In this document: one piece after another, positions 16,729 through 63,036 of the stretch
Numbering within the stretch: position 1 is the first letter of the stretch
How the letters are laid out: every line of letters starts with the position of its first letter
NCBI GenBank assembly: GCA_963556695.1
Contig: CAUWAG010000007.1
Location: 1,488,001-1,552,000 of the forward strand
DNA length: 64,000 nucleotides
Origin: Anthostomella pinea
Lineage: Eukaryota > Ascomycota > Sordariomycetes > Xylariales > Xylariaceae
Direction: 5' to 3'
Program-made: the position numbers and the translations under genes
The notes under the pieces: generated by a model
Database searches by the model: none
What the model was told of the DNA's origin: nothing
What the model saw: only the letters and a program-made list of their open reading frames with translations

Positions 16729-16968
16729 GATGTGTTCGAGACTGTTGACGGTCCCTGGCTGATTCCTGTAGATAAAGTCAAGCTAGTAATGGTATCTGAC
16801 TAGGTAGTAAGAATCGTATTTGTACTGGACGAGCTAGTCGATGAGTTGGATGTGTTCGAGGCTGTTGACGGGCCCTGACTGGTTCCCGTAGATTAAACCA
16901 AACTACTTGTGATATCTGACGATGTAATAGGAGTCGTACTTGTACTGGACGTGCTAGGGGATGAGCTG
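16729..16968. repeat. 120-bp tandem duplication in the stalk
   Basis: Two units, about 16729-16848 and 16849-16968, begin GATGTGTTCGAGNCTGTTGACGG and share the order GTAGAT, CTGAC and GTACTTGTACTGGACG. Both in-frame stop codons of the stalk lie in this duplicated segment. Confidence 0.7.
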
Positions 16969-19336
16969 GAAGATATATCAGGTATAACACTAGATGTGCT
17001 TGACACCATGAACGATCCGAAGCTACTCTCAGTAGATTGGGTTGAGCTAGAGGTGATTGGAACCGTCGACGATGCCTGACTGGTTACAATAACTGACGTT
17101 GTACTAGACGGAGTCGACAATGTTGAAGATTCTCGGCCGACCTCCGTGGACGAAGTCAAGCTAGATGTGTCTGGCACTATTGACGATCCAAGGCTGTTTT
17201 CCGTAGATGAGGTAGAGCTAGATACGCTTGGGACTATCGACGTTTCCTGGCTGCTTACAGCAATGGATGCCGAGCTAGGCGTGCCCGAGACCGTCGATGA
17301 TGACTGGTTGTTATCAGTAGACGAGCTTGGCGCTGCTGACGATACCTGACTGGCTTCCCCAGATGAGCTTGAGATAGAGAGCGTCGAGACTGTCGACGAT
17401 GCTAGTCCTGGGTCTGTGGAACAAGCTGCCGGGTTACTGGACGCTGCCGATGCTCCTTGACCAGCCTCCACGGAGGAAGTCGTTCGGTCACTGGATGCCA
17501 CAAATGTTGCTTGGCTAGTGTCCGTGGAAGCCGTTGGGCCACTGGACGCTGCCGAAGATGCTGGACCTGGGTCTATGGAAGAAGTCGTTGGATTACTGGA
17601 CGCTGACGATGTTGCTTGGCTAGGATCCGTAGAAGAACTCGCTGGGGCACTGGAAGCTGCTGATGTCGCCTGGCCTATATCTATGGATGAACTTGCGCTA
17701 GATGAGAATGACGCCGTCGATGACACCGCGTTTGTATCCGTAGGCGAGCTGCTGCTTGTTACCAGACCGGATGCGCCCAGAGGTTCCGATGTAATTGCGG
17801 TGGACGAGAGCGCCGTGCTGTCTGTGGGGGATGAGGTTCCAGTGCTAGTCTGGGCTCCTGAAGTTTCAGTGCCCGAGTCCGTAGATGAACTGAAACCAGA
17901 ACTCATCGTCCCTATTGACGAAGAGGCAGCCAAAGAGGAAGTGGGACCACTTGTGATGGCTTCTGACGAGCTGCTGCTGGTTAGATCAGATAGGTTAGAG
18001 CTACTGTGCGCGGCCTCTGTCGACTCCATTGGAGGAGTAAGGCTAAGGCTTGCACCAGGTTGAATGCTATTCACATCAATCTCCGTAGAGATTGCACTGG
18101 CATCCGATGACGTGAAGGGCACAGCAGCTTCTGTCGTTGCAGAGGCTGAAGTGTCAGCAATATCGCTTGGAGCTGTTGAGCTTACAGCTTCCACGGAAGA
18201 GCTACTGGTTCCAATGGTAGTGGGTTCCGAGGTCGTCGAAGAAAGTCCATCAGTTCCAGTGGTAGCCGAACTACTAATGGAGTCAGTCGCAATCGAAGAT
18301 ATAGCTGGATCGGAGGTTGTGCTTGGCTCTCCAACGGTGGAGTCAGTGCTCGAGGGCTGGTCTGTCATCGAGCTAGTAGAGTCCGCGGCACTTGTTGTAG
18401 CTGCATTCGTAGCCTCCGTGCCCGTGACACCCGAAACTGTCGAGCTTGTTACCGTACCAGTGGTAGCGGTGTTTGTGGTAGTCGTATCCTCACCTGATAT
18501 GCTTCCACTAGCGGTATCTCCACTACTTGAAGACTCTGTTGGGCTACCAGCGGATTCCGTACTAGAGTCAGTACTTATAGATGTGTCCGTGGAGTAGCTA
18601 GCGGTGATGGCGCTACTTAGTTCAGCCAGGCTATTTAAAGTTCCTAGGGAGCTGGCCGTCACTCCATTGGGCGTGCCTGTGCTTGGTCCAGTGCTGGCCT
18701 CGGTGGTCTCAACTGCCTGCTGAGCGCTGCTCGAACTTGCACTTGTGTTGGGACCCGGGACGGAAGTAGTAGTTCCCGGTGGAGACGAGGGGCCAAATAT
18801 GGAAGTGCCTGTTATCTCGGAAGGTGGTACAGTGTCAGACGTAGTGGCGGAGCTCGCGTTAGTGGTGGCTGTGAAACTGGAATCTGAAGATACTGCACTG
18901 TCAGTTGTAAGAACAGAGCTCGTGTCAGTAGTAGTCGTAAAACTAGAAGATGATGAAGTCGAAGTGACCTCAGAGGTCGTCTGGTCTGATGTGCCTAAAT
19001 GTTCCAGTCTACCAGTGGATGAGGTTGCAGTGCCATCTTGTGTTGCAGAAGTCTGAGTGCCCGAATCTGTAGCTGAACTGTTGCTTGGTTCCAGACTGGA
19101 TGTGCCTGTAGATACTAGGTTACTGGTGGACGAGATCGCCGTGCTGTCCTGGGTCTCTGGAGCCTGAGTGCCCGAATCCGTAGCTGAGTTGTTGCTTGGT
19201 TCCAGACTGAATGTGCCTGTAGATATTAAGTCACTGGTGGATAAGGCCGCAGTGCTGCCCTGGGTTTCTGAAGCCTGAGTGCCCGAACCCTTAGCTGAAC
19301 TGCTGTTTTGTTCCAGACTGGATGTATTTATCGTCG

Positions 19337-19650
19337 TTTGTTGTTTGTTTGTTTGTTTTGTAATTAACGTGGGGGGTAGCTCCTCAGTAGTGCAGACCAC
19401 GCCTCCCAGAGCCGCTGCATCGCAGGGTTGTGGAGGTCTCAAGAAAATAAGTACAGTCAGTCCCGCTCACGGGCCCATCCCCGTTGTTGCGGCGGTATGA
19501 CCTTGGGGTCATCCATCTGGTCCTTCAAGAACAGCTATCTATCGGAGACAGATTGTTGAAAAGAACTTACTCTTCTCCACGAATTTTGCCCATTCTGTGC
19601 TCCTCTCCCCTAAGTATTGTAAACAGGCTGTCCTAGGCGAGTACCTAGGC
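19337..19650 (-). mobile_element. 5'-truncated Tad1-like LINE 3' end
   Basis: Starts GCCTAGGTACTCGCCTAGGACAGCC, runs through the last codons of ORF2 and the 3' UTR, and ends ACGTTAATTACAAAACAAAC plus CAAA repeats. At its first 25 bp it matches the left, decayed LINE (GTACTCGCCTAGGACAGCC) better than the right, intact LINE (GCATTCGCCTAGGGCAGCT), so it was copied from a relative of the left lineage. Confidence 0.85.
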
Positions 19651-19685
19651 ATTAATGGTACAGGATGAATTTAACATCCAATTGA

Positions 19686-19757
19686 TGGACTCGCGGGGAA
19701 TCGAACCCCGGACCACTCCCATGCTAAGGGAGTATTATACCACTAAACCACAAGCCC
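19686..19757 (-). tRNA. tRNA-Ala (AGC), retroposed copy
   Basis: A 72-nt cloverleaf. Acceptor GGGCTTG/CGAGTCC with discriminator A; A box TGGTTTAGTGGT; anticodon stem CTCCC/GGGAG with loop TTAGCAT (anticodon AGC, Ala); T arm CCGGG-TTCGATT-CCCCG with a perfect B box. No intron and no encoded CCA. One acceptor pair is T-G where C-G would be expected, as after a C-to-T change. No T-run terminator follows within 35 nt, so Pol III transcripts would run into the LINE tail. Whether it still makes mature tRNA is unknown; it lies inside the retroposed unit. Confidence 0.88.
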
Positions 19758-21576
19758 GTATATCTATCCAATGATTTTTATATTTATCGTCGAGGAGACC
19801 GATGCAAGGGATTCACTAGTGCTGCCGATATCTGCCGATTCAGCGGCGCTCGTGCCTGGGGAAGAGAAATCAGCTGAGGTTGTAGTGGTAGTATCCGGAG
19901 ATAGCTCTGCGCTGCTGCTTTCGGTAGAGGTTTGAGACTGAGCTGGAGTCGAGTTGGGAATCGAGCCAGAAGTCTCGCTGGTGGACTGGCCAGACTCCAC
20001 TGAACCACTGGAGACATAGACGGACTATTGGGTGACCCGCTCTCCGAGCCAGTGGTGCTGACAGTAGCAATATTGCTGATGCCGCTTGTCGAGGAGCCCT
20101 CGCTAGTATTACTGGGTGTCTCGGATTGTCCGGAGGTGGTGCCAACCAAGCCACTCCCCGTGGCAGTCGACGCTGTTGAGTCGCCGCTGGGGCCAGAGGT
20201 AACGCAAGAAGAACCACCCAGGCTCGAACTTGGTAGTGAATCATCTGTGCTGATCGTCGAGCTGGAACTAGACGTTGAGTCTAAGACACTGCTGATCGAG
20301 GTAGAGCTATCTGAGTTCTTAGTTGATGCTGGTGAACTACTCGCTGTGCCACCAGAGTCTGGAGGATCAGTCAATTGATCAAGTACAGTCGATGAAAAAG
20401 CGGTAGAACTGCCAGTCGAGGCGCTATCAGTGTAACAGCTTCATCTGACGTTGTGGTGCTAGTGTCCGAGGTGCTGCAAGATTGCTCCGTCGAACTTTGC
20501 GTGAATGTGGTGCTGGTTGTGACAGCAGCGTCAATGTTAACCCCATTTTTACATCGATTTACTTCGTTAACAAGCATTAGCGGCAGTCAGGAAGAACAAA
20601 GGATAAAAAGAAGGGAAATCATCGTTTCGACCAACTTACCGGTGTGAATGACCAAATCAATAGAAGTGCAATTAAAGGGACCGCCAGATTCAGTGAAGGT
20701 AGCATAAACCGCGCCGCTACCAACTTGGCAGAAACCAGCAGTGCCATTATAAAACGTTGCATTGCTCCAGATCAGTATGCCATCCGCAACCTCGAAGGTA
20801 GTGCTGATAGAGCCGGTCGTGAAGTTTGCGATGTCGATGTACGGCATTCCCGGGTCGACAGATAGGGGTCTCCCCACATTATGGAGTTGCCCGTTGCCTT
20901 TGACCTGTACCAATTTGAGTCAGCAACTGTCCTTCCAGTGATATCTTGGGGGGTACCACCGGTTTCGTAAGCCAACGCTCAGGAGTATAAAACCCCGCTG
21001 ACGACAACAATAGGGAAAGACACAAGTCAAGGGGGTACTAACGTATATATTGGCATTGGTACAGTTGTCTGGGTTCGGGTAGGTCGATTTTCCCACGAAG
21101 CCAGAACTGGAGTTCGAGGCAGGCGGCGGAGGGTCATCTAGAGCCCATAGCTCTAAATCGCGGCGACCGATCGTCGCGTTCCTGTCTACTCCGACTTCTA
21201 TGCTGAGTACAACAGATGACAGTGCTGGGGCAGTGGAGCTAGCAGACGATTCCGAGTTGGAAGGCGTGGCGGTTTCGGCAGCTGGTGACGGACTGCTAGG
21301 TGTGGGATCAAAACTTGTGCTGCTCGGCTCTGAACTGCTTACAGGCGATCCCGATTGTCTCGCTGTTGGAGACTGCGGACTAGACGTAATGCCCCCACAG
21401 GAGCCCGGTTCCGTCTGGGGTGGACTTGTAGAGCCGGTGATAAGCCCGGAATTGTTCACCGAGGGTGGTCCGGTATTCCCTTGAATTTGACTGCCAATTG
21501 ATTGTGGTGTCCCCGTGGTTCCCACACTTGGACCCGAAGCTGCGCCTGGGCCCGTACTTTCTAGAGCCGAAGTCCC

Positions 21577-51775: not shown

Positions 51776-52347
51776 CGCGGATTGGGTATTGTTTGTTGTT
51801 TGTTTGTTTGTTTTGTATTTAACGTGGGGGGTAGCTCCTCAGTAGTGCAGACCACGCCTCCCAGAGCCTCTGCATCGCAGGGTTGTGGAGGTCTCAAGAA
51901 AATAAGTACAGTCAGTCCCGCTCACGGGCCCATCCCTGTTGTTGCGGCGGTATGACCTTGGGGTCATCCATCTGGTCCTTCAAGAATAGCTATCTATCGG
52001 AGACAGATTGTTGAAAAGAACTTGCTCTTCTCTACGAATTTTGCCCATTCTGTGCTCTTCTCCCCTAAGTATTGGAAACAGGCTGTCCTAGGCGAGTACC
52101 TAGGCAACAACCGATTTTTTCCTAGTCTCTTACAAAAGAAAATATGTTGTGGTGTTTTCTTTTCACCACAGCTGCAGTGGTTGTTCGAGTCTGTATGCCC
52201 AAAGCGTTCGTGGTATCTGGCAAAGTCGCCATGTCCAGATCTGGCCGCTAGAAGTCTGTGTAGAGTGCTCCTCTTAAAGGATATAAGGCCTCTTTTAGTT
52301 ACTGCATGTGAGTATACTTCTTGATACCTAGGTTCTGATTGGTCTTT

Positions 52348-55300
52348 TTACCATTGGTTGAACTCTTTCTTGCCCTTTCTCTTGAGATCTCTCTTAACCC
52401 AAGAGATTATAGGAAGGTTTGTCGTGTCTGTTTCTAGCATAGTACCTTCTTTTATTAATATATCGGCAGCTTCGTTACCATCAATATCTCTGTGTCCAGG
52501 AATCCACTTGACGGTCACTCCAGGAGTGTGTGCTGTGGCGAGTTCTTGGAATCGCAGAAAAATTTTCTGTGATGTCTCAGGTGGAGTCCCATTGAGCCCA
52601 TCCACCACTGATGTGTTGTCCAGACAGACATATAGCTGTTTTCCGTGTCCAATTGCCCTGGCTGCTGCAAGACCTTGGAGAGCACCATGGACTTCAGCAT
52701 CTACTACTTCTGCTTGTAGAAGTCTGCCCCTTCCCCGGTATACTTCTTGTGTAGTGCCGCCTTTCTTGATGGTATAGCCCCATCCAGTGCGGGTTGTGCC
52801 TTGGTCGTCCAATTGTGATCCATCTGAATAGATGACAAGGTCAGTGTTCGCATTTCTTTCCTGTAGCCATTGCTTGAAGAGCTCTATTTCTTTGTCTTTG
52901 TCTTTACAGACTGGGGGCTTTTTCTATAATGGCTTGGTGAGTATTGGTCTCTGGAAGTCAGGGACTAGTTGGAAGCTCCTTTGTAACCTTGTTGGTTCTT
53001 TGCGAGCTTGTATTTGGAGCCTGCCAACAAGAGGGTGTCTCTGATCTACTCGTCCGAGTCGGAGGCCGTGATGTCTTCTTATTGACTCTGCAAGAATTCT
53101 TGCTGGAGGAATCTGTGATTCAAAGTGTAGGATATGTCCAGGGTGTGTTTTCCAGACTGGCAAGATAGCTCTGATTGCCGTTCATAGTACAGCATCTATC
53201 GTTCTAAGAAGCCCTTTAATGCGACATGCTGATGTCCCACCTAAGCTCCTAATTTTTTTTATTCCTGGGTACCAGGCCTCCAGGCCATGTGTAAGAATAG
53301 GAATAACACAAGTTTTTACAGCCCTCTTGGTTGACTTTACTGGAAGTCCTTTGACTATGTTGCATAGTCCTTAAAGGTGGTTTGCTACCCTACTAACTTT
53401 CTTGGCCCAATAAGAAACGTGATCTTTGAAGTTCAGTTTTCTATCCAGGAAGACACCCAGCCATCGCATGGAGTTCTTTGCTGTTCTGTTTATTGTCCCG
53501 TGGCGGACCGGAGGATTGTCTGAATTCTTTTTCCGTGAGAAGTGCATGATCTCGGTTTTGTTGGGGTCAAACTCAATAACATTATTGTGTCCCTATTAGT
53601 TAAATAAATAAAGGTTTTCAGAAGCCTCTGTAGCTGTTTCCTTAAGGTTCTTTCCAATACAGAGAGTCGCTAAGTCGTCTGCATATCTAAAGCGTCTCCT
53701 TTTCATACCGAGTCGGGCACAGATTGGCTCTGTATACAGCATGTAAAGGATTGGAGAAGCTGGTGAGCCTTGTGGTAGCCCACAAGTGAGAGCTTTTATG
53801 TCGGTCACAATACCTTTAAACCGAACTCTTGCGGACCGTTCAGACATGAATGACTGGACCCATCTTATGAGAGAGTCTGGCCAGCCCTGTTCTCTCATGC
53901 GAACCACCAGCCGTCCCATTAGGGCAGCGTCGAAGGCCCCTGTCACATCTGCTGTGACTACCGTTGCAACAAGGCCTTGGTCAAGGGCCTGCTCAATATC
54001 GTGTATGAGTGCAGCTACCAAGTCGGCGGCAAAGCGCTTTGGCAGAGCTCCAAAATGTTGTGGAGCTAGAATTCTGAGTTTGATGACAAACCAGGCAATT
54101 CTTTTTGTGATGAGTCGTTCTAGGCCTTTGCCAAGACATGATAATAGCGATATTGGTCTGTAGGCCCTGGGGTTAGAGTAGTCTTTCTTGCCTGGCTTTG
54201 GGATCATCACTACCTCAGCTACTTTGAATGGTTTAGGGTGGTGTCCAATCTGTAGACAGGTCTGGAAAAGGGCTCTGATATGCTCCCCAATGACTGGCCA
54301 GCAAGCTTTCAGAATCCGTACTGTGAGGGTGTCTACTCCTGGGGAGTTGCTCTTGGTCCCTATAGTGCACCCTTCAGCCTCTTCTAGTCCGACATGGTAT
54401 TCAAGGGGGATGTGTGGCTTGGCTTGTGTGATCTGAGCAGACCAGGGGTCGATGATATCGTTGTCTGGGGTACTTCGTTTAAGCATGGCTAAGCGTAGTG
54501 CATTTGCCTTGCTCTTTTGTGACTCAAAGATTTGGTCCCCTATGATGATTGGGGGGGAACGCAATCCTGTTGACAGCTTGTGCCAGGAAACAATTCTGTA
54601 CAGGTCTTTTGGTTCAGTCGCTGAATCAATTAGAGTCTGTCAGTACTCTCTCTTAGCTTTTCGGACCACACAGCAAAATTCCCGTCGGGCTGAATTTCGC
54701 CCTTCTTGGCTTGTGGTCTGTTTAGAAAGGGCCCTGTATGTCTGAACAGCTGCTTTGCAGTCATCATTCCACCAAGCAGTGGGCCTAGATTGACGGGGCT
54801 TCTTGCCCACTGTCCTGATACAGCCTTGGATCATGTTGATCAAGCTTTGTGTAAAGGCATCCACCTGGCCAGGGGATACACCCAGCCGGGGGAGTTCATG
54901 AATCCTGGTTTGGACATTGTCTGCCAGCTCTTGTAGTTTATCGTCCGGTACTATCCAATGATTGGCCTTAGGAACTCGGTCCCGATCTCCCTGAATTGGA
55001 ATGACTATTCGTAATGTCTCATAATCTGAGGTGCACTGAAGTGCATCATTGACTGAGGCTTCAGCCATGGGGACATCTGAGAACACCAGATCCAGTACAT
55101 TTCCATCGTCATGTGTTGGGACATCTGGTTCAGAAATCAGATCCAGTCCGTGGTCTGCCATAGTCTGTGCCAGTATGACGCCACCGTGATATCCTGGATT
55201 GCTCGAGTCCCAGGATATGTCGCCAGCATTAAAATCTCCAGCTATAACACAGCCAAAAGGTGGAGTCCATACTTCCAGAATATCATCCACTTCCTGTGGG

Positions 55301-55686
55301 TTGTCACATGGCCGGTAGACACTGGCAAATGTGATGCCATGTACCTTGACCCAGGTGATGTCTCGTGTAGCATAGGGCCGAAGTTGATCCGTTTGAAGGT
55401 GTTTTCTCACATAGATGAGAGATCTGGGCCGTGTACTGTCGCTGTCCCAGGAATCCACTGGGGAGTATATATTGTAATTGGGGTGTGTCTTTACTCCCAT
55501 TCTCCTGCCTGGTGGTATGCCAACCCAGGGCTCTTGTATCAGAATGATGTCTGCTTGTTCTCCTTTGTAGTCAGCCAGGTTGATGGCTAACTCTGTAGGG
55601 CCTGCACTCTTTTGTCCTCCTGCTGTATTCATAGAATGGATGACTAGATGCCTGTGTCGATGTGTTTCGTTTGATGTACCTAACAT
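52348..55686 (-). pseudogene. LINE ORF2 (EEP endonuclease, RT, RNase H), decayed
   Basis: Endonuclease start MLGTSNETHRHRHLVIHSMN with ADIILIQEPWVG; RT with PKPGKKDYSNPRAYRPISLL and the catalytic YADD (RFRYADDLATLC); RNase H with GWGYTI, CLDNTSVVDGL and GHRDIDGNEAAD. The frame is interrupted near 54639, 53595, 53390-53160, 52920 and 52330. The copy cannot encode a working protein. Confidence 0.88.
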
Positions 55687-57315
55687 TGACTGACAACAAT
55701 GGTATCGGCATCTCTGGGATGAGTTGTATCTGTTGTGTCGATTTGCATTGTGGTGTCTTTGTTATTGTTGTTGGGTGTTGACCCAGCTTGGTTTCTGCCT
55801 GTTTCATTAAAGGCCTTGGATCTGGCTCTTTCCCCGGCTAGCCTTATTTCCTGGATTTGCTCCCATGTGTGCTTATGGATGGTACCTTTCACAACCTTGG
55901 GGCGGGCAGGGCATTTATTGAAATTGGCAGCATGAGGTCCTTTGCAGTTGACACACTTTGGGATTGGTTTTTCGCACTCTCCCTAGTGTACTGTGTTGGC
56001 GCAGTGTGCACATACTTGCTTTTCGCATTAGTAATTCCTACCATGGTATCTGAAGCAGCTTGCACACTGGTGAACCTTGGGGGTGTGTTGAATATGCCTT
56101 GAGGTCATTGAGTGAGCAAAAAGCGTGAATGGTTTCCTTGCTGCACTGGGCAGAGAGATTATCCACGTGGTTTCTGGATCAGAATCAGTCGTGTTCTTTG
56201 AGAGTATGCACCTCAGAGGTCTGTCGTCTGTTTGGGCTTCAACTTCATCGGCAACAACAGTGTCGGTAATATTGATTGTGAACCCTTCTGCACTGATGAC
56301 CTTTCTTGGGCATCCATCGACCTTGTAATGATGCCAGACTGTGTGGGTCTAAATCTTTTGTGCCTTGAGAATGTCAGCAATTTCTTCTTGGAAAGCCAGA
56401 AGCTTAGTCTGAATTGGCTTATCCCTTGGGTGTAAGGTAAATCCAGAAGGACACCGTGTCACTTCTCTAAGCTCCTGAGGATGGAGCTTAAGTCTTCTGT
56501 TTAGTATAGACTTGATTCCATAAGGCTCAAGGTGGCTATTATCCATGCGGACAAAGACCCAGAGATCATCCTGCTTCCTCTTTAATTGGTTGATAGTGAT
56601 AAGGGCACTAGGCTGTGTTTTTTTTCATGGTAGTGTTGACTATCCATGGATGCTGTCGTTGGCCAGAGGAGACAGCTTGGGCGAGGGTCATGGTGGGCTT
56701 CCCTATTTCTATCCCCCCAGAAGTGGCCTTTCTTGTGGTCAGATCTCGGGTTTCCAGCCACTCATTCAGACATTTGGAGAAGAAAGCGCTGAACTCCTTG
56801 GCATGAGAATATAGTTCGGTTCCAGCTTTCTCAAGTGTCTTATCGACTGCTGTAACACACTCCTGAAACATTGTCATCCTGGCTTCATAGAGATGCTTGT
56901 CTTTAGCCAGTATTTTGGCAACTTGGTCCTGGCACTCTGAAGAGGAGACTTTGTTCCCTGTATCACCTCCAATGGCTTGGTCTGTAGGGATTTCGCTTGA
57001 CTAAGGTAGTTCCATATCAATGGTGCTGCTATTAATGATATTTCGGGATTTTCCTTTCAGAGGGGAAACAGTGGTGAAGTCAGCCTCAGAGACCTGTGAC
57101 GGGCTGCTGTTGATGTCGTCGAGCAGTGCCTGGCGGAGCCTGCTTGGGGTTGCCGGGTCATGTGTTCTTTTAGGGACTGGGGATTTGAACACGCCGCCAG
57201 TAGTCGTCTTTGGGACGGCCACTGGCGTGTTTGGGGGCCTGTCGTGAAAGGGTGCCATCCAGCTTGTGAGAAAAAATTTCTGCGCCTTGGCAAGGATAGT
57301 CAGGTACTGAGACAA
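55680..57315 (-). pseudogene. LINE ORF1, decayed
   Basis: Fragments of the ORF1 protein: N-terminal APFHDRPPNTPVAVPKTTTG, the middle part with KFSAFF-type helix remnants at 56608-56877, HPQELREVTRCPSGFTLHPR at 56349-56546, and the zinc-knuckle region (about 55930-56080) with stops. Frames are broken at several points compared with the intact copy at 57570. Confidence 0.82.
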
Positions 57316-57569
57316 ATGCCTGCTTTAGTGCAGATATAGAGGTTGCGCCCTAACAGCGGGGCGCCAAGAAAAATAGTTGTTTTTGGCAAGAGTGTGTTAC
57401 GCGGATTGGGTATTCATTACCTTTTGTAGCACACACTCTTACCAAAAACAACTATTTTTCTTGGCGCCCCGCTGTTAGGGCGCAACCTCTATATCTGCAC
57501 TAAAACAGGCATTTATTTCAGTACCTGACTATCCTTGCCAAGGCGCAGAAAATTTTTCTCACAAGCTGG

Positions 57570-59147
57570 ATGGCACCCCTTCACGATAGGCCCCCAAATA
57601 CGCCAGTGGCCGTCCCAAAGACGACTACTGGCGGCGTGCTCAAATCCCCGGTCCCTAAAAGAACATATGGCCCGGCAACCCCAAGCAAGCTCCGCCAGGC
57701 ACTGCTCGACGACATCAACAGCAGCCCGTCACAAGTCTCTGAGGCTGACTTCACCATTGTTTCCCCTCTGAAAGGAAAATCCCGAAATATTAATACTAGC
57801 AGCATCATTGATATGGAAGTACCTCAATCAAACGAAATCTCTACAGACCAAGCCATTGGAGGCGATACAGGGAACAAGGTCTCTTCCTCAAAGTGCCAGG
57901 ACCAAGTAGCCAAAATACTGGCTAAAGACAAGCATCTCTATGAAGCCAGGATGACAATGTTTCAAGAGTGTGCTGCAGCAGTCGATAAGACACTGGAAAA
58001 AGCTGGAACCGAACTATACTCTCATGCCAAGGAGTTCAGCGCTTTCTTCTCCAAATGCCTGAACGAGTGGCTGGAAACCCGAGATCTGTCCAAAAGAAAG
58101 ACCACTCCTGGCGGGATAGGGATAGGGAAGCCCACCATGACCTTCGCCCAAGCTGTCTCCTCTGGCCAACGACAGCATCCATGGACAGTCAACACTACCA
58201 TGAAGAAAACACAGCCTGGCGCCCTCATCACTGCCAACCAACTGAAGAAGAAGCAGGATGATCTCCGGGTCTTTGTCCGCATGGATAATAGCCACCTAGA
58301 GCCTTATGGAATCAAGTCTACACTGAACAGAAGACTTAAGCTCCACCCTCAGGAGCTTAGAGAAGTGACACGATGTCCTTCTGGTTTTACCTTACACCCA
58401 AGGGACAAGCCAACTCAGGCTAAGCTTCTGGCTTTCCAAGAAGAAATTGCCGACATTCTCAAGGCACAAAAGATTGAGACCCACACAGTCTGGCATCATT
58501 ACAAGGTCAATGGATGCCCAAGAAAGGTCATCAGTGCAGAAGGGTTCACAATCGATATTACTGACACTGTTGTTGCCGATGAAGTTGAAGCCCAAACAGG
58601 CGACAGACCTCTGAGGTGCATACTCTCAAAGAACACGATTGATTCTGATCCAGAAACTACATGGATAATCTCTCTGCCCAGTGCAGCAAGGAAACCATTC
58701 ACGCTTTTTGCCCACTCAATGACCTCAAGGCATATTCAACACACCCCCAAGGTTCACCAGTGTGCAAGCTGCTTCAGATACCATGGTAGGAATTACCGAT
58801 GCGAAAAGCAAGTATGTGCACACTGCGCCAACACAGTACACCAGGGAGAGTGCGAAAAACCAATCCCAAAGTGTGTCAACTGCAAAGGACCTCATGCTGC
58901 CAACTTCGACAAATGCCCTGCCCGCCCCAAGGTTGTGAAAGGTACCATCCATAAGCACACATGGGAGCAAATCCAGGAAATAAGGCTAGCCGGAGAAAGA
59001 GCCAGATCCAAGGCCTTCAACGAAGCAGGCAGAAACCAAGCTGGGTCAACACCTAACAATAATAACAAAGACACCACAATGCAAATCGACACAACAGATA
59101 CAACTCATCCCAGAGATGCCGATACCATTGTTGTCAGTCAATGTTAG
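57570..59147 (+). CDS. LINE ORF1, nucleic-acid-binding protein with zinc knuckles
   Basis: 525 aa, with ATG at 57570 opening MAPLHDRPPNTPVAV. Such proteins coat the LINE RNA and form the ribonucleoprotein. About residues 397-451 hold three Cys-rich knuckles: CASCFRYHGRNYRC, CAHCANTVHQGEC and CVNCKGPHAANFDKC. The N-terminal half is Ser/Thr-rich with a helix (LYSHAKEFSAFFSKCLNEWL) that may mediate oligomerisation. The stop codon lies inside the start of ORF2 (ATGTTAG), the arrangement expected for stop-start reinitiation. Confidence 0.92.
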   Translation: MAPLHDRPPNTPVAVPKTTTGGVLKSPVPKRTYGPATPSKLRQALLDDINSSPSQVSEADFTIVSPLKGKSRNINTSSIIDMEVPQSNEISTDQAIGGDTGNKVSSSKCQDQVAKILAKDKHLYEARMTMFQECAAAVDKTLEKAGTELYSHAKEFSAFFSKCLNEWLETRDLSKRKTTPGGIGIGKPTMTFAQAVSSGQRQHPWTVNTTMKKTQPGALITANQLKKKQDDLRVFVRMDNSHLEPYGIKSTLNRRLKLHPQELREVTRCPSGFTLHPRDKPTQAKLLAFQEEIADILKAQKIETHTVWHHYKVNGCPRKVISAEGFTIDITDTVVADEVEAQTGDRPLRCILSKNTIDSDPETTWIISLPSAARKPFTLFAHSMTSRHIQHTPKVHQCASCFRYHGRNYRCEKQVCAHCANTVHQGECEKPIPKCVNCKGPHAANFDKCPARPKVVKGTIHKHTWEQIQEIRLAGERARSKAFNEAGRNQAGSTPNNNNKDTTMQIDTTDTTHPRDADTIVVSQC

Positions 59148-62100
59148 GTACATCAAACGAAACACATCGACACGGGCATCTAGTCATCCATTCTGTGAAT
59201 ACAGCAGGGGGACAAAAGAGTGCAGGCCCTACAGAGTTAGCCATCAACCTGGCTGACTATAAAGGAGAACAAGCAGACATCATTCTGATGCAAGAGCCCT
59301 GGGTTGGCATACCACCAGGCAGGAGAATGGGAGTAAAGACACACCCCAATTACGATATATACTCCCCAGTGGATTCCTGGGACAGCGACAGTACACGGCC
59401 CAGATCTCTCATCTATGTGAGAAAATACCTTCAAGCGGATCAACTTCGGCCCTATGCTACACGAGACATCACCTGGGTCAAGGTACAAGGCATTACATTT
59501 GCCAGTGTCTACCGGCCATGTGACAACCCACAGGAAGTGGATGACATTCTGGAAGTATGGACTCCACCTTTTGGCTGCGTTATAGCTGGAGATTTCAATG
59601 CTGGCGACACATCCTGGGACTCAAGCAATCCAGGATATCATGGTGGTACTATACTTGCACAAACTATGGCAGACCACGGACTGGATCTGATTTCTGAACC
59701 AGATGTCCCGACACATGATGACGGAAATGTACTAGATCTGGTGTTCTCTGATGTCCCCATGGCTGAAGCCTCAGTCAATGATGCACTTCAGTGCACCTCA
59801 GATCATGAGACATTACGAATAGTCATTCCAATCCAGGGAGATCTGGACCGAGTACCCAAGGCCAATCATTGGATAGTACCGGACGATAAACTACAGGAGC
59901 TGGCAGATAATGTCCAAACCAGGATTCATGAACTCCCCCGGCTGGGTGTATCCCCTGGCCAGGTGGACACCTTTACACAAAGCCTGATCAACATGATCCA
60001 AGGCTGTATCAGGACAGTGGGCAAGAGGCCCCGTCAATCTAGGCCCACTGCTTGGTGGAATGATGACTGCAAAGCAGCTGTTCAGACATACAGGGCCCTT
60101 TCCAAACAGACTACAAGCCAAGAAGGACGGAATTCAGCCCGACGAGAATTTCGCGGCGTGGTTCGGAAAGCTAGGAGAGAGTACTGGCAGACTCTAATCA
60201 ATTCAGCAACTGAGCCAAAGGACCTATACAGAATCGTCTCTTGGCACAAGTTATCAGCAGGATTGCGTTCCCCTCCAATCATCATAGGAGACCAAATATT
60301 CGAGTCACAAGAGAGCAAGGCAAATGCATTACGCTCAGCCACGCTTGAACGAAGTACCTCAGACAACGATATCATCGACCCCTGGTCCGCTCAGATCGTA
60401 CAACCCAAGCCACACATCCCCCTTGAATACCACGTCGGACTGGAAGAGGCTGAAGGGTGCACTTTAGGAACCAAGAGCAACTCCCCGGGAGTAGATACCC
60501 TCACAGTACGGATTCTGAAAGCTTGCTGGCCAGTCATTGGTGAACATATCAGAGCCCTTTTCCAGACCTGCCTACTGATTGGACACCACCCTAAACCATT
60601 CAAAGTAGCTGAGGTGGTGATGATCCCAAAACCAGGAAAGAAAGACTACTCCAATCCCAGGGCCTACAGACCAATATCGCTACTGTCATGTCTTGGCAAG
60701 GGCCTAGAACGACTCATTGCGAAAAGAATTACCTGGTTTGTTGTCAAACTTGGAATTCTAGCCCCACAACATTTTGGAGCTCTACCAAAGCGCTCTGCCA
60801 CTGACCTGGTAGCTGCACTCATACACGATATTGAGCAGGCCCTTGACCAAGGCCTCGTTGCAACGGTAGTCACATCAGATGTGAAAGGGGCCTTTGATGC
60901 TGCCCTAATGGGACGGCTGGTGGTTCGCATGAGAGAACAGGGCTGGCCAGGCTTTCTCATAAGATGGGTCCAGTCGTTCATGTCCGAGCGGTCCGCAAGA
61001 GTTCGGTTTGAAGGTACTGTGACCGATATAAAAGCTCTCACTTGTGGGCTCCCACAAGGCTCACCAGTCTCTCCAATCCTCTACATGCTGTATACAGAGC
61101 CAATCTGTGCCCGACTTGGCATGAAAAGAAGACGCTTTGGATATGCAGATGATCTAGCAACACTCTGCATTGGAAAGAACCTTAAAGAAACAGCTGCAGA
61201 GGCTTCTGAAAACCTTCATTTGCTCAACCAATGGGGACATAACAATGCTATTGAATTTGATCCCGACAAAACCGAGATCATGCACTTCTCACGGAAAAAG
61301 AACTCAGACAATCCCCCAGTTTGCCACGGAACAATAAACAAAACAGCTAAGCATTCCATGCGATGGCTAGGTGTCCTTCTGGATAGGAAACTAAACTTCA
61401 AAGACCATGTTTCTCACTGGGCCAAGAAAGCTAGTAGGGTAGCAAATCACCTTCGAGGACTATGCAACACAGTCAAAGGACTTCCAGTAAAGTCAACCAA
61501 GAGGGCTGTGAAAGCTTGTGTTATTCCTATTCTCACACATGGCCTGGAGGCCTGGTACCCAGGAATCGAGAAAACTGGGAGCTTAGGTGAGACATCAGCA
61601 TGTCGCATTAAGGGGCTTCTTGGAACAATAGATGCCGTACTACGAACGGCGATCAGGGCTATCTTGCCAGTCTGGAAAACACACCCTGGACATATCTTAC
61701 ACTTTGAATCGCAGATTCCCCCAGCAGGAGTTCTTGCAGAGTCAATAAGACGACGTCACGGCCTCCGACTAGGACGAATAGATCAGAGACACCCTCTGGT
61801 TGGCAGGCTCCAAATACAAGCTCGCAAGGATCCAACAAGGCTACAAAGAAGCTTCCAGCTAGTCCCTGACTTCCAGAGACCAATACTTACCAGGCCATCA
61901 TGGAGGAAGCGCCCAATCCGCAAAAACAAAGACAAAGAAACAGAGCTCTTCAAGCAATGGTTACAAGAGAGAAACGTGAACACTGACCTTGTCATCTACT
62001 CAGATGGATCACAGTTGGATGACCAAGGCACAATCCGCACTGGATGGGGTTATACCATCAGGAAAGGCGGCACTACACAAGAAGTATACCGGGGAAGGGG

Positions 62101-62833
62101 CAGACTTCTACAAGCAGAAGTAGTAGATGCTGAAGTCCATGGTGCTCTCCAAGGTCTTGCAGCAGCCAGGGCAATTGGACACGGAAAACAGCTATATGTC
62201 TGCCTGGACAACACGTCAGTGGTAGATGGGCTCAATGGGACTCCACCCGAGACATCACAAAACATTTTTCTACGATTTCAAGAACTTGCCACAGCACACA
62301 CTCCTGGAGTGACCGTCAAATGGATTCCTGGACACAGAGATATTGATGGCAACGAAGCTGCCGACACACTAGCAAAAGAGGGTGCCATGCTGGAAACAGA
62401 CACAACAAATCTTCCTACAATCTCTTGGGTCAAGAGAGATCTCAAAAGACAGGGCAAGAAAGAGTTCAACCAATGGTGGAAAGACCAATCAGAATCTAGG
62501 TATCAAGAAGTATACTCACATGCAGTAACTAAAAGAGACCTTATATCTTTTAAGAGGAGTACTTTACACAGACTTCTAGCGGCCAGATCTGGACATGGCG
62601 ACTTTGCCAGATACCATGAACGCTTTGGGCACACAGATTCAAATGATCACTGCAGCTGTGGTGAGAAGAAAACACCACAACACATTTTCTTTTGTAAGAG
62701 GCTGGGGAAAAATCGGCTACTGCCTAGGCATTCGCCTAGGGCAGCTTGTTTACAATACTTAGGGGAGAGGAGCACAGAATGGGCAAAATTCGTGGAGAAG
62801 AGCAAGTTCTTTTCAACAATCTGCCCCCGATAG
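59141..62833 (+). CDS. LINE ORF2, endonuclease / reverse transcriptase / RNase H
   Basis: 1230 aa. The N-terminal EEP (APE-type) endonuclease, about 10-230, includes ADIILMQEPWVG, GDFNAGDTSWDS and the SDHETLR His site. The reverse transcriptase, about 480-740, has MIPKPGKKDYSNPRAYRPIS, GLPQGSPVSPILY and the catalytic FGYADDLA near 667. RNase H, about 945-1080, has IYSDGSQLDDQG, DNTSVVDG and PGHRDIDGNEAAD with its acidic residues. The C-terminal CxC..H..C motif (CSCGEKKTPQHIFFCKRL, about 1170-1187) is typical of non-LTR elements. It performs target-primed reverse transcription and is the probable helper of the chimeric retroposon at 19325. All key residues are present. Confidence 0.95.
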   Translation: MLGTSNETHRHGHLVIHSVNTAGGQKSAGPTELAINLADYKGEQADIILMQEPWVGIPPGRRMGVKTHPNYDIYSPVDSWDSDSTRPRSLIYVRKYLQADQLRPYATRDITWVKVQGITFASVYRPCDNPQEVDDILEVWTPPFGCVIAGDFNAGDTSWDSSNPGYHGGTILAQTMADHGLDLISEPDVPTHDDGNVLDLVFSDVPMAEASVNDALQCTSDHETLRIVIPIQGDLDRVPKANHWIVPDDKLQELADNVQTRIHELPRLGVSPGQVDTFTQSLINMIQGCIRTVGKRPRQSRPTAWWNDDCKAAVQTYRALSKQTTSQEGRNSARREFRGVVRKARREYWQTLINSATEPKDLYRIVSWHKLSAGLRSPPIIIGDQIFESQESKANALRSATLERSTSDNDIIDPWSAQIVQPKPHIPLEYHVGLEEAEGCTLGTKSNSPGVDTLTVRILKACWPVIGEHIRALFQTCLLIGHHPKPFKVAEVVMIPKPGKKDYSNPRAYRPISLLSCLGKGLERLIAKRITWFVVKLGILAPQHFGALPKRSATDLVAALIHDIEQALDQGLVATVVTSDVKGAFDAALMGRLVVRMREQGWPGFLIRWVQSFMSERSARVRFEGTVTDIKALTCGLPQGSPVSPILYMLYTEPICARLGMKRRRFGYADDLATLCIGKNLKETAAEASENLHLLNQWGHNNAIEFDPDKTEIMHFSRKKNSDNPPVCHGTINKTAKHSMRWLGVLLDRKLNFKDHVSHWAKKASRVANHLRGLCNTVKGLPVKSTKRAVKACVIPILTHGLEAWYPGIEKTGSLGETSACRIKGLLGTIDAVLRTAIRAILPVWKTHPGHILHFESQIPPAGVLAESIRRRHGLRLGRIDQRHPLVGRLQIQARKDPTRLQRSFQLVPDFQRPILTRPSWRKRPIRKNKDKETELFKQWLQERNVNTDLVIYSDGSQLDDQGTIRTGWGYTIRKGGTTQEVYRGRGRLLQAEVVDAEVHGALQGLAAARAIGHGKQLYVCLDNTSVVDGLNGTPPETSQNIFLRFQELATAHTPGVTVKWIPGHRDIDGNEAADTLAKEGAMLETDTTNLPTISWVKRDLKRQGKKEFNQWWKDQSESRYQEVYSHAVTKRDLISFKRSTLHRLLAARSGHGDFARYHERFGHTDSNDHCSCGEKKTPQHIFFCKRLGKNRLLPRHSPRAACLQYLGERSTEWAKFVEKSKFFSTICPR

Positions 62834-63036
62834 ATAGCCTTCCTTGAAGGACCAGATGGATGACCCCAAGGTCATACCGCCGCAACAACGGGGATGGGCC
62901 CGTGAGCGGGACTGACTGTACTTATTATCTTGAGACCTCCACAACCCTGCGATGCAGAGGCTCTGGGAGGCGTGGTTTGCACTACTGAGGAGCTACCCCC
63001 ACGTTAAATACAAAACAAACATTACCTTTTGTAGCA

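Follow-up and report, generated by a model that had tools for sequence, protein, structure and literature searches.

Retrocopies that join a cellular RNA to the 3′ part of a long interspersed nuclear element (LINE) have been described in fungi and mammals, and a long-standing proposal explains the LINE-type 3′ ends of short interspersed nuclear elements (SINEs) by template switching from LINE RNA to tRNA (Gilbert and Labuda 1999 and Ohshima and Okada 2005, cited in PMC4476161). In Magnaporthe, 33 bipartite chimeras and one tripartite chimera were attributed to template switching, with switch sites described there as having a GCC*A/U motif, upstream hairpins and no microhomology (PMC2104539). 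The 21 mammalian tRNA/LINE-1 chimeras comprise mostly antisense tRNA halves and were attributed to twin priming (PMC13174262), while human pre-tRNA retropseudogenes made by L1 are mentioned in PMC4476161 (Schmitz et al. 2004). PittSINE has been explained by a template switch onto tRNA-Asp during target-primed reverse transcription; as no genome assembly was available, the alternatives for its origin were described as untestable (PMC5729268). Fungal SINE/LINE pairs include Mg-SINE/MgL and SINE2-1_BG/Tad1-24_BG (PMC3747384), and AfuSINE2-1a is a tRNA-headed fungal SINE with a LINE-like tail (PMC5063351). Here we describe a 444-bp unit at 19337-19780, on the minus strand, of a 64,000-nucleotide stretch of the ascomycete Anthostomella pinea (the window; assembly GCA_963556695.1, contig CAUWAG010000007.1, positions 1,488,001 to 1,552,000). 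Its sequence makes it very probable that the unit is a chimeric retrocopy, produced in one insertion when a LINE reverse transcriptase switched from LINE RNA to an unprocessed pre-tRNA-Ala(AGC).

The unit resembles Magnaporthe MINE, composed of WEIRD RNA and 3′ parts of the MGL LINE, in being fungal and in carrying a non-coding cellular RNA at its 5′ side and a truncated LINE at its 3′ side, both in the same orientation (PMC2104539). The duplications of MINE span 10-20 bp, compared with 12 bp here, template switching is the explanation given for MINE and proposed here for the unit, and the Magnaporthe host likewise harbours a SINE (Mg-SINE) with an MGL-like 3′ end (PMC2104539). In contrast, the MINE partner is a 1.1-kb RNA of obscure function, for which that account reports no solo gene, whereas the partner of the unit is a pre-tRNA with a located donor; MINE has 31 copies as opposed to one unit here, and the junctions differ in motif, hairpin side and microhomology (PMC2104539). 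The mammalian chimeras share the joint insertion of tRNA and LINE, with duplications of 9-19 bp in the eight cases checked, but the unit is distinguished from them by a full-length sense pre-tRNA that retains leader and trailer (PMC13174262). As in the PittSINE model, the switch yields a tRNA head on a LINE-type tail; however, PittSINE is an established family whose switch starts from SINE RNA, whereas the unit is a single insertion that would have started from LINE RNA and has a located donor (PMC5729268). The other fungal SINEs have the same layout as the unit, and as a resident SINE family described below with 264 head matches, but these are repeated families, whereas the unit is single-copy and its tRNA undiverged (PMC3747384, PMC5063351). 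Template-switch LINE chimeras, including those of tRNA and L1, are therefore known as such, and the present case contributes a full-length sense pre-tRNA, together with its donor gene, in a single insertion; no full-length sense pre-tRNA/LINE chimera from a fungus was found in the literature searched, which mostly excluded subscription papers. A template switch onto a tRNA is the kind of step long proposed for the birth of SINEs. Because one assembly contains a candidate founding product, the donor and the limits of its transcript, LINEs that look intact and an established SINE whose 3′ end is similar, this model of origin can be tested stepwise.

Anatomy and joint insertion of the unit

The unit is enclosed by exact 12-bp direct repeats, with TATTTATCGTCG present at 19325-19336 and 19781-19792 (12/12 identical); a 12-mer direct repeat spaced by 456 +/-3 bases occurs at 3 of 200,000 random places of the window. 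In the 5′ to 3′ direction, it consists of TAA, a 20-nt leader, tRNA-Ala(AGC), a 33-nt trailer, one base and a 315-bp LINE end with a CAAA-type tail:

19781-19792, minus strand: 5′ target-site duplication, CGACGATAAATA on the minus strand, an exact 12/12 repeat of 19325-19336
19778-19780, minus strand: three extra nucleotides, TAA, which separate the target-site duplication from the leader that matches the donor; the donor match starts at unit position 16
19758-19777, minus strand: 5′ leader of the putative copied pre-tRNA, 20 nt, the same as the 20 nt 5′ of the donor gene at C2:8851750
19686-19757, minus strand: tRNA-Ala(AGC), intact, 72 nt, no intron (ARAGORN; Rfam RF00005, 59.4 bits)
19653-19685, minus strand: 3′ trailer of the putative copied pre-tRNA, 33 nt, with a T-arm-like hairpin, matching the donor trailer to 1 nt before its T5 terminator
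19652-19655, minus strand: junction, where TTA (19653-19655) is common to the donor trailer and, by comparison of LINE copies, to the 'GGTTATTGCC' type of LINE, followed by A (19652)
19337-19651, minus strand: last 315 bp of a 5′-truncated LINE, 97.5% identical to the LINE at 51791-57397, with the CAAA-type tail at 19337-19360
19325-19336, minus strand: 3′ target-site duplication, an exact repeat of 19781-19792

The repeat and the parts of the unit are thus located where an earlier sequence-only reading of the window had placed them, with the unit reading on the minus strand, and the tRNA that it had called complete is intact by both ARAGORN and Rfam. This tRNA is the sole ARAGORN tRNA and the sole Rfam match at gathering score in the window, and its Rfam score is equal to that of the donor and of three other tRNA-Ala genes. 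The call rests on ARAGORN and Rfam because the predicted minimum fold of leader, tRNA and trailer is not a cloverleaf. No CCA has been added to the tRNA. Two elements of the sequence-only reading required revision: its 35-nt spacer is not a mere spacer but comprises the 33-nt trailer and one extra nucleotide, such that the LINE part proper begins at 19651, and only 20 nt of its 23-nt leader belong to the donor leader, the remaining TAA lying outside the donor match. Next to the donor-matching leader, on its 5′ side, the unit reads ATAA where the donor has GCAC, and the extra TAA is probably untemplated. No T-run separates the tRNA from the tail, as had been noted, and T4 runs occur within the LINE part itself, at unit positions 231 and 346 (19792 being position 1).

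That tRNA and LINE tail were inserted jointly, as previously proposed, is upheld by the single pair of target-site duplications surrounding both. A cellular RNA copy is fused directly to a LINE 3′ part, both parts are in sense orientation on the minus strand, the LINE CAAA-type tail precedes the 3′ duplication, and a LINE ORF2 with endonuclease and reverse transcriptase is encoded within the window. A truncated LINE that landed beside an old tRNA gene would equally leave separate tRNA and LINE parts; this is the least probable of the explanations considered, since a single duplication pair encloses both parts and the donor homology, which lies within the duplications, is bounded close to the two ends of the transcript and gives way to unrelated flanks. 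A plain tRNA retropseudogene was rejected, because 315 bp of LINE follow the tRNA.

Likely donor gene, proposed template switch and junction

A genome search with the head of the unit gave six matches, all of which were scored (6/6 candidates). One of these, C2:8851730-8851854, is identical to the unit over 125/125 bases, comprising 20 nt of leader, 72 nt of tRNA and 33 nt of trailer, and it is the only other place where this segment is complete. The likely donor of the head, on the basis of this identity, is the tRNA-Ala gene at C2:8851750-8851821, which has no LINE tail at its own locus. Beyond the matched segment the donor continues with C and then TTTTT, so that the match stops 1 nt before the T5 terminator. 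The four other tRNA-Ala(AGC) genes differ in their leaders and match, at 91-93%, over the tRNA-plus-trailer region only. Their trailers are partly alike (79% mean column identity among the tRNA-Ala(AGC) genes), yet a 26-mer of the donor trailer, searched genome-wide with up to 3 mismatches, occurs in just two places, the donor and the window.

Because it agrees with the donor trailer until 1 nt short of the terminator, the presumed spacer is identified as a pre-tRNA 3′ trailer, and the match of leader, tRNA and trailer to the donor suggests that the copied RNA was a nearly complete, unprocessed transcript of RNA polymerase III (Pol III). The retained leader and trailer indicate that the acceptor RNA would have been a precursor tRNA, and we infer that the 5′ limit of the donor match corresponds to the Pol III transcription start; by yeast rules, CA|AA is a start site for Pol III. 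Copying at the DNA level, in which gene conversion or a segmental duplication placed the donor tRNA gene in a LINE end, would be compatible with the sequence identity taken alone. It is nevertheless very improbable, given that the limits of the copied segment are 1 nt short of the terminator at one end and roughly at the expected start of the transcript at the other, and that the duplications lie outside both parts.

The five tRNA-Ala(AGC) trailers (L032-L036) each contain a T-arm-like hairpin, for example AGAGG-TTCAATT-CCTCT, ahead of a T4-T5 terminator, the first T-run of one gene being T4. This hairpin may be the remnant of another tRNA or of a second B box. Two of its pairs are changed on both sides, as is likewise the case in 64/500 shuffles, and pairs are broken in two genes.

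A single duplication pair, the sense orientation and homology limits near the transcript ends argue for one target-primed insertion with a change of template. Target-primed reverse transcription would have started at the CAAA tail of the LINE's own RNA, and about 315 nt of LINE RNA would have been copied before the enzyme left this template. Copying would then have resumed on a nuclear unprocessed pre-tRNA-Ala(AGC), entered one base before its U5 end, and continued to about its 5′ end, whereupon the joint product would have been inserted with a 12-bp target-site duplication. The insertion is likely to be recent, as judged from sequence comparison: the tRNA part has no private substitutions in 125 bp, and the unit has 3 in 305 bp against 55 tail alignments from fetched loci, such that either the insertion is young or the LINE template already had those changes.

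The main rival is that the two RNAs were joined first, with the pre-tRNA 3′ end ligated to a LINE RNA fragment and the hybrid then reverse transcribed from the LINE tail. This path yields the same sense-sense product with one target-site duplication, and it is named as an alternative for U6/L1 chimeras (PMC13174262). At the present junction, the TTA match and a base matching neither partner are easier to obtain via a jump during copying, and ligation would need a LINE fragment cut exactly at the junction. Fungi do possess a tRNA ligase. On balance we consider ligation unlikely and infer that the joining took place during reverse transcription rather than earlier at the RNA level.

At the junction, the donor trailer and LINE copies of the 'GGTTATTGCC' type have TTA in common, and the A that comes next fits neither. 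The junction coincides with the 5′ foot of a LINE hairpin, CCTAGG-TACTCG-CCTAGG (-11.3 kcal/mol), which ranks in the best 0.16% of 5583 24-nt LINE windows, although it was spotted post hoc. Further LINE-derived chimeras were sought at 60 LINE-tail loci, a non-random sample of 642 tail matches made up of the best unit matches (L001-L030) and the first 30 loci with an exact tail match, which all lie on C2 (L067-L096). Among these, 32 run off the fetched stretch, 12 are plain truncated LINEs, 6 are SINEs and 8 are unassigned; the two loci flagged with an insert are the window unit and L022, a truncated LINE with a nested SINE. The target-site duplications of the 12 plain truncated LINEs, of which L085 is doubtful in having a CAAA-like repeat, range from 12 to 17 bp and include the length seen for the unit.

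Several of these observations count against a template switch. The 3-nt match at the junction could be due to chance, and it differs from the absence of microhomology in Magnaporthe; the junction hairpin is on the already copied side, whereas the Magnaporthe hairpins are upstream of the switch sites; the GCC*A/U motif is absent from the junction, a GCC sitting just 3′ of it within the retained LINE part; and the 60 tail loci revealed no second cellular-RNA chimera, with 32 of them not judgeable and 8 unassigned. The motif is one reported for Magnaporthe and is not taken here as defining chimeras in general, and the differences from the Magnaporthe junctions leave the main anatomy unaffected.

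Rfam at gathering score returned nothing in 20 of the surveyed loci, a search that is insensitive to diverged heads, since it missed the SINE head in L022. A search for U6/LINE chimeras, in which 47 of 2591 candidates were scored, gave at least one U6 that passed the cut-off, along with three weaker matches.

Copy number and the resident SINE family

The tRNA head and junction were found once in this genome, as searched with the whole unit, the head and the trailer. At least 40 other LINE tails were matched by the whole unit, and in none does the match continue into the tRNA part (of 849 candidates, 40 were scored); this search alone would be insufficient to establish a single copy because of the fraction scored, whereas all candidates of the head search were scored. 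Of the two origins offered by the sequence-only reading, the better fit is one template switch, from LINE RNA to a pre-tRNA, with the single genomic copy that it had named as favouring this origin. Its other proposal, a young SINE family, is not sustained: the head and junction were found once, and the other SINE family in the genome has a different tRNA-like head. The SINE-like features are nevertheless real, namely a tRNA head and LINE tail, a simple-repeat tail, target-site duplications, an intact tRNA that suggests an internal Pol III promoter, and the coexistence of another SINE family with a similar tail. What is missing is a repeated family with a common head-tail joint and individual duplications, and we regard membership of such a family as highly improbable.

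The putative template-switch product has the layout of a SINE founder, with an intact-looking tRNA gene and a LINE 3′ end, and shows no sign of multiplication. It is conceivable, although doubtful, that it represents a founder just after birth, a functional-looking pre-tRNA gene joined to a LINE 3′ recognition end, whose Pol III transcript could use the LINE machinery that would already serve a resident SINE family of a few hundred copies.

The resident family is about 560 bp long and comprises a tRNA-like head, a body, a LINE-like 3′ part and a CAAA tail, flanked by its own 12-15 bp duplications. It is whole in L022, L069, L083, L092 and L093 and truncated in L075 and L086. A head pattern (up to 3 mismatches, genome-wide) gave 264 matches compared with 0 for the reversed control, and a pattern in the 3′ part gave 208. 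ARAGORN assigns the head to tRNA-His(gtg), of 94-95 nt, with one variant copy (L069) lacking a full anticodon. Among the four loci searched, Rfam supports only this variant (30.7 bits), which marks the SINE head as diverged. Within L022, the SINE is nested in a truncated LINE and is flanked by a 12-bp repeat of LINE sequence.

The 3′ part of the SINE is 85% identical to the LINE over 149 bp, and because of this resemblance the LINE type of the unit appears to serve SINEs in this genome. The resident SINE contains an internal T5 and yet has multiplied, so the T4 runs of the unit do not by themselves exclude its activity. The second element of L069, with TTGTGTGTTTCTGTTGGC duplications, is a longer SINE variant of 751 bp including both 18-bp duplications; it has an extra body stretch, its tail differs and ends in an AATC-type repeat, and a similar tail is found on one LINE (L077). 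The main text of the genome paper on A. pinea (PMC10763133) nowhere contains SINE, LINE, transposable or retrotransposon as a whole word.

LINEs and flanking sequence

Elsewhere in the genome, at least 40 loci match the LINE part of the unit over about 310 bp at 95-99% (of 849 candidates, 40 were scored), and the best match among fetched copies is 99.0% over 305 bp. A LINE 3′-end pattern (up to 2 mismatches, genome-wide) gave the 642 tail matches, compared with 1 for the reversed control. The LINE part also matches both full-length LINEs of the window:

51791-57397, minus strand: full-length LINE of the tail-type family, not necessarily the template copy, 93% identical over its length to the second LINE, with direct repeats GCGGATTGGGTATT at both ends
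57431-63021, plus strand: full-length LINE with a 525-aa open reading frame (ORF) at 57570-59147 and a 1230-aa ORF at 59141-62833, with direct repeats ATTACCTTTTGTAGCA

The 1230-aa ORF contains endonuclease/exonuclease/phosphatase, RVT_1 and RNase H domains. 'Tad1-like' was the name used in the sequence-only reading, and the LINE is characterized here by domain content alone. Single-strand folds of the LINE tail are not clearly better than those of shuffled sequences (z of -0.72 and -1.29). The two window LINEs lie in a head-to-head arrangement with 33 bp between them; each has direct repeats of its own, of 14-16 bp, and one apparently inserted beside the 5′ end of the other. At L006 and L084/L085, a second truncated LINE follows almost directly after a LINE 3′ end, an arrangement that may reflect insertion into a CAAA tail or end-to-end template jumping.

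The insertion is adjoined by an open frame of 857 aa (16896-19466, minus strand), which contains 111-bp and 105-bp tandem repeats and extends into the LINE part. On the far side of the unit the flank is open in a different phase, and because the frames on the two sides differ in this way, a clean interrupted gene cannot be claimed. No homologue of the frame was found among 7976 scored candidates.

Elsewhere in the assembly, the clusters of tRNA matches on C1 (32,605 bases), which is probably the mitochondrial contig, recur at equal or similar scores on C2, C9, C13, C15 and C16, and the clusters on these five large contigs are probable nuclear copies of mitochondrial DNA.

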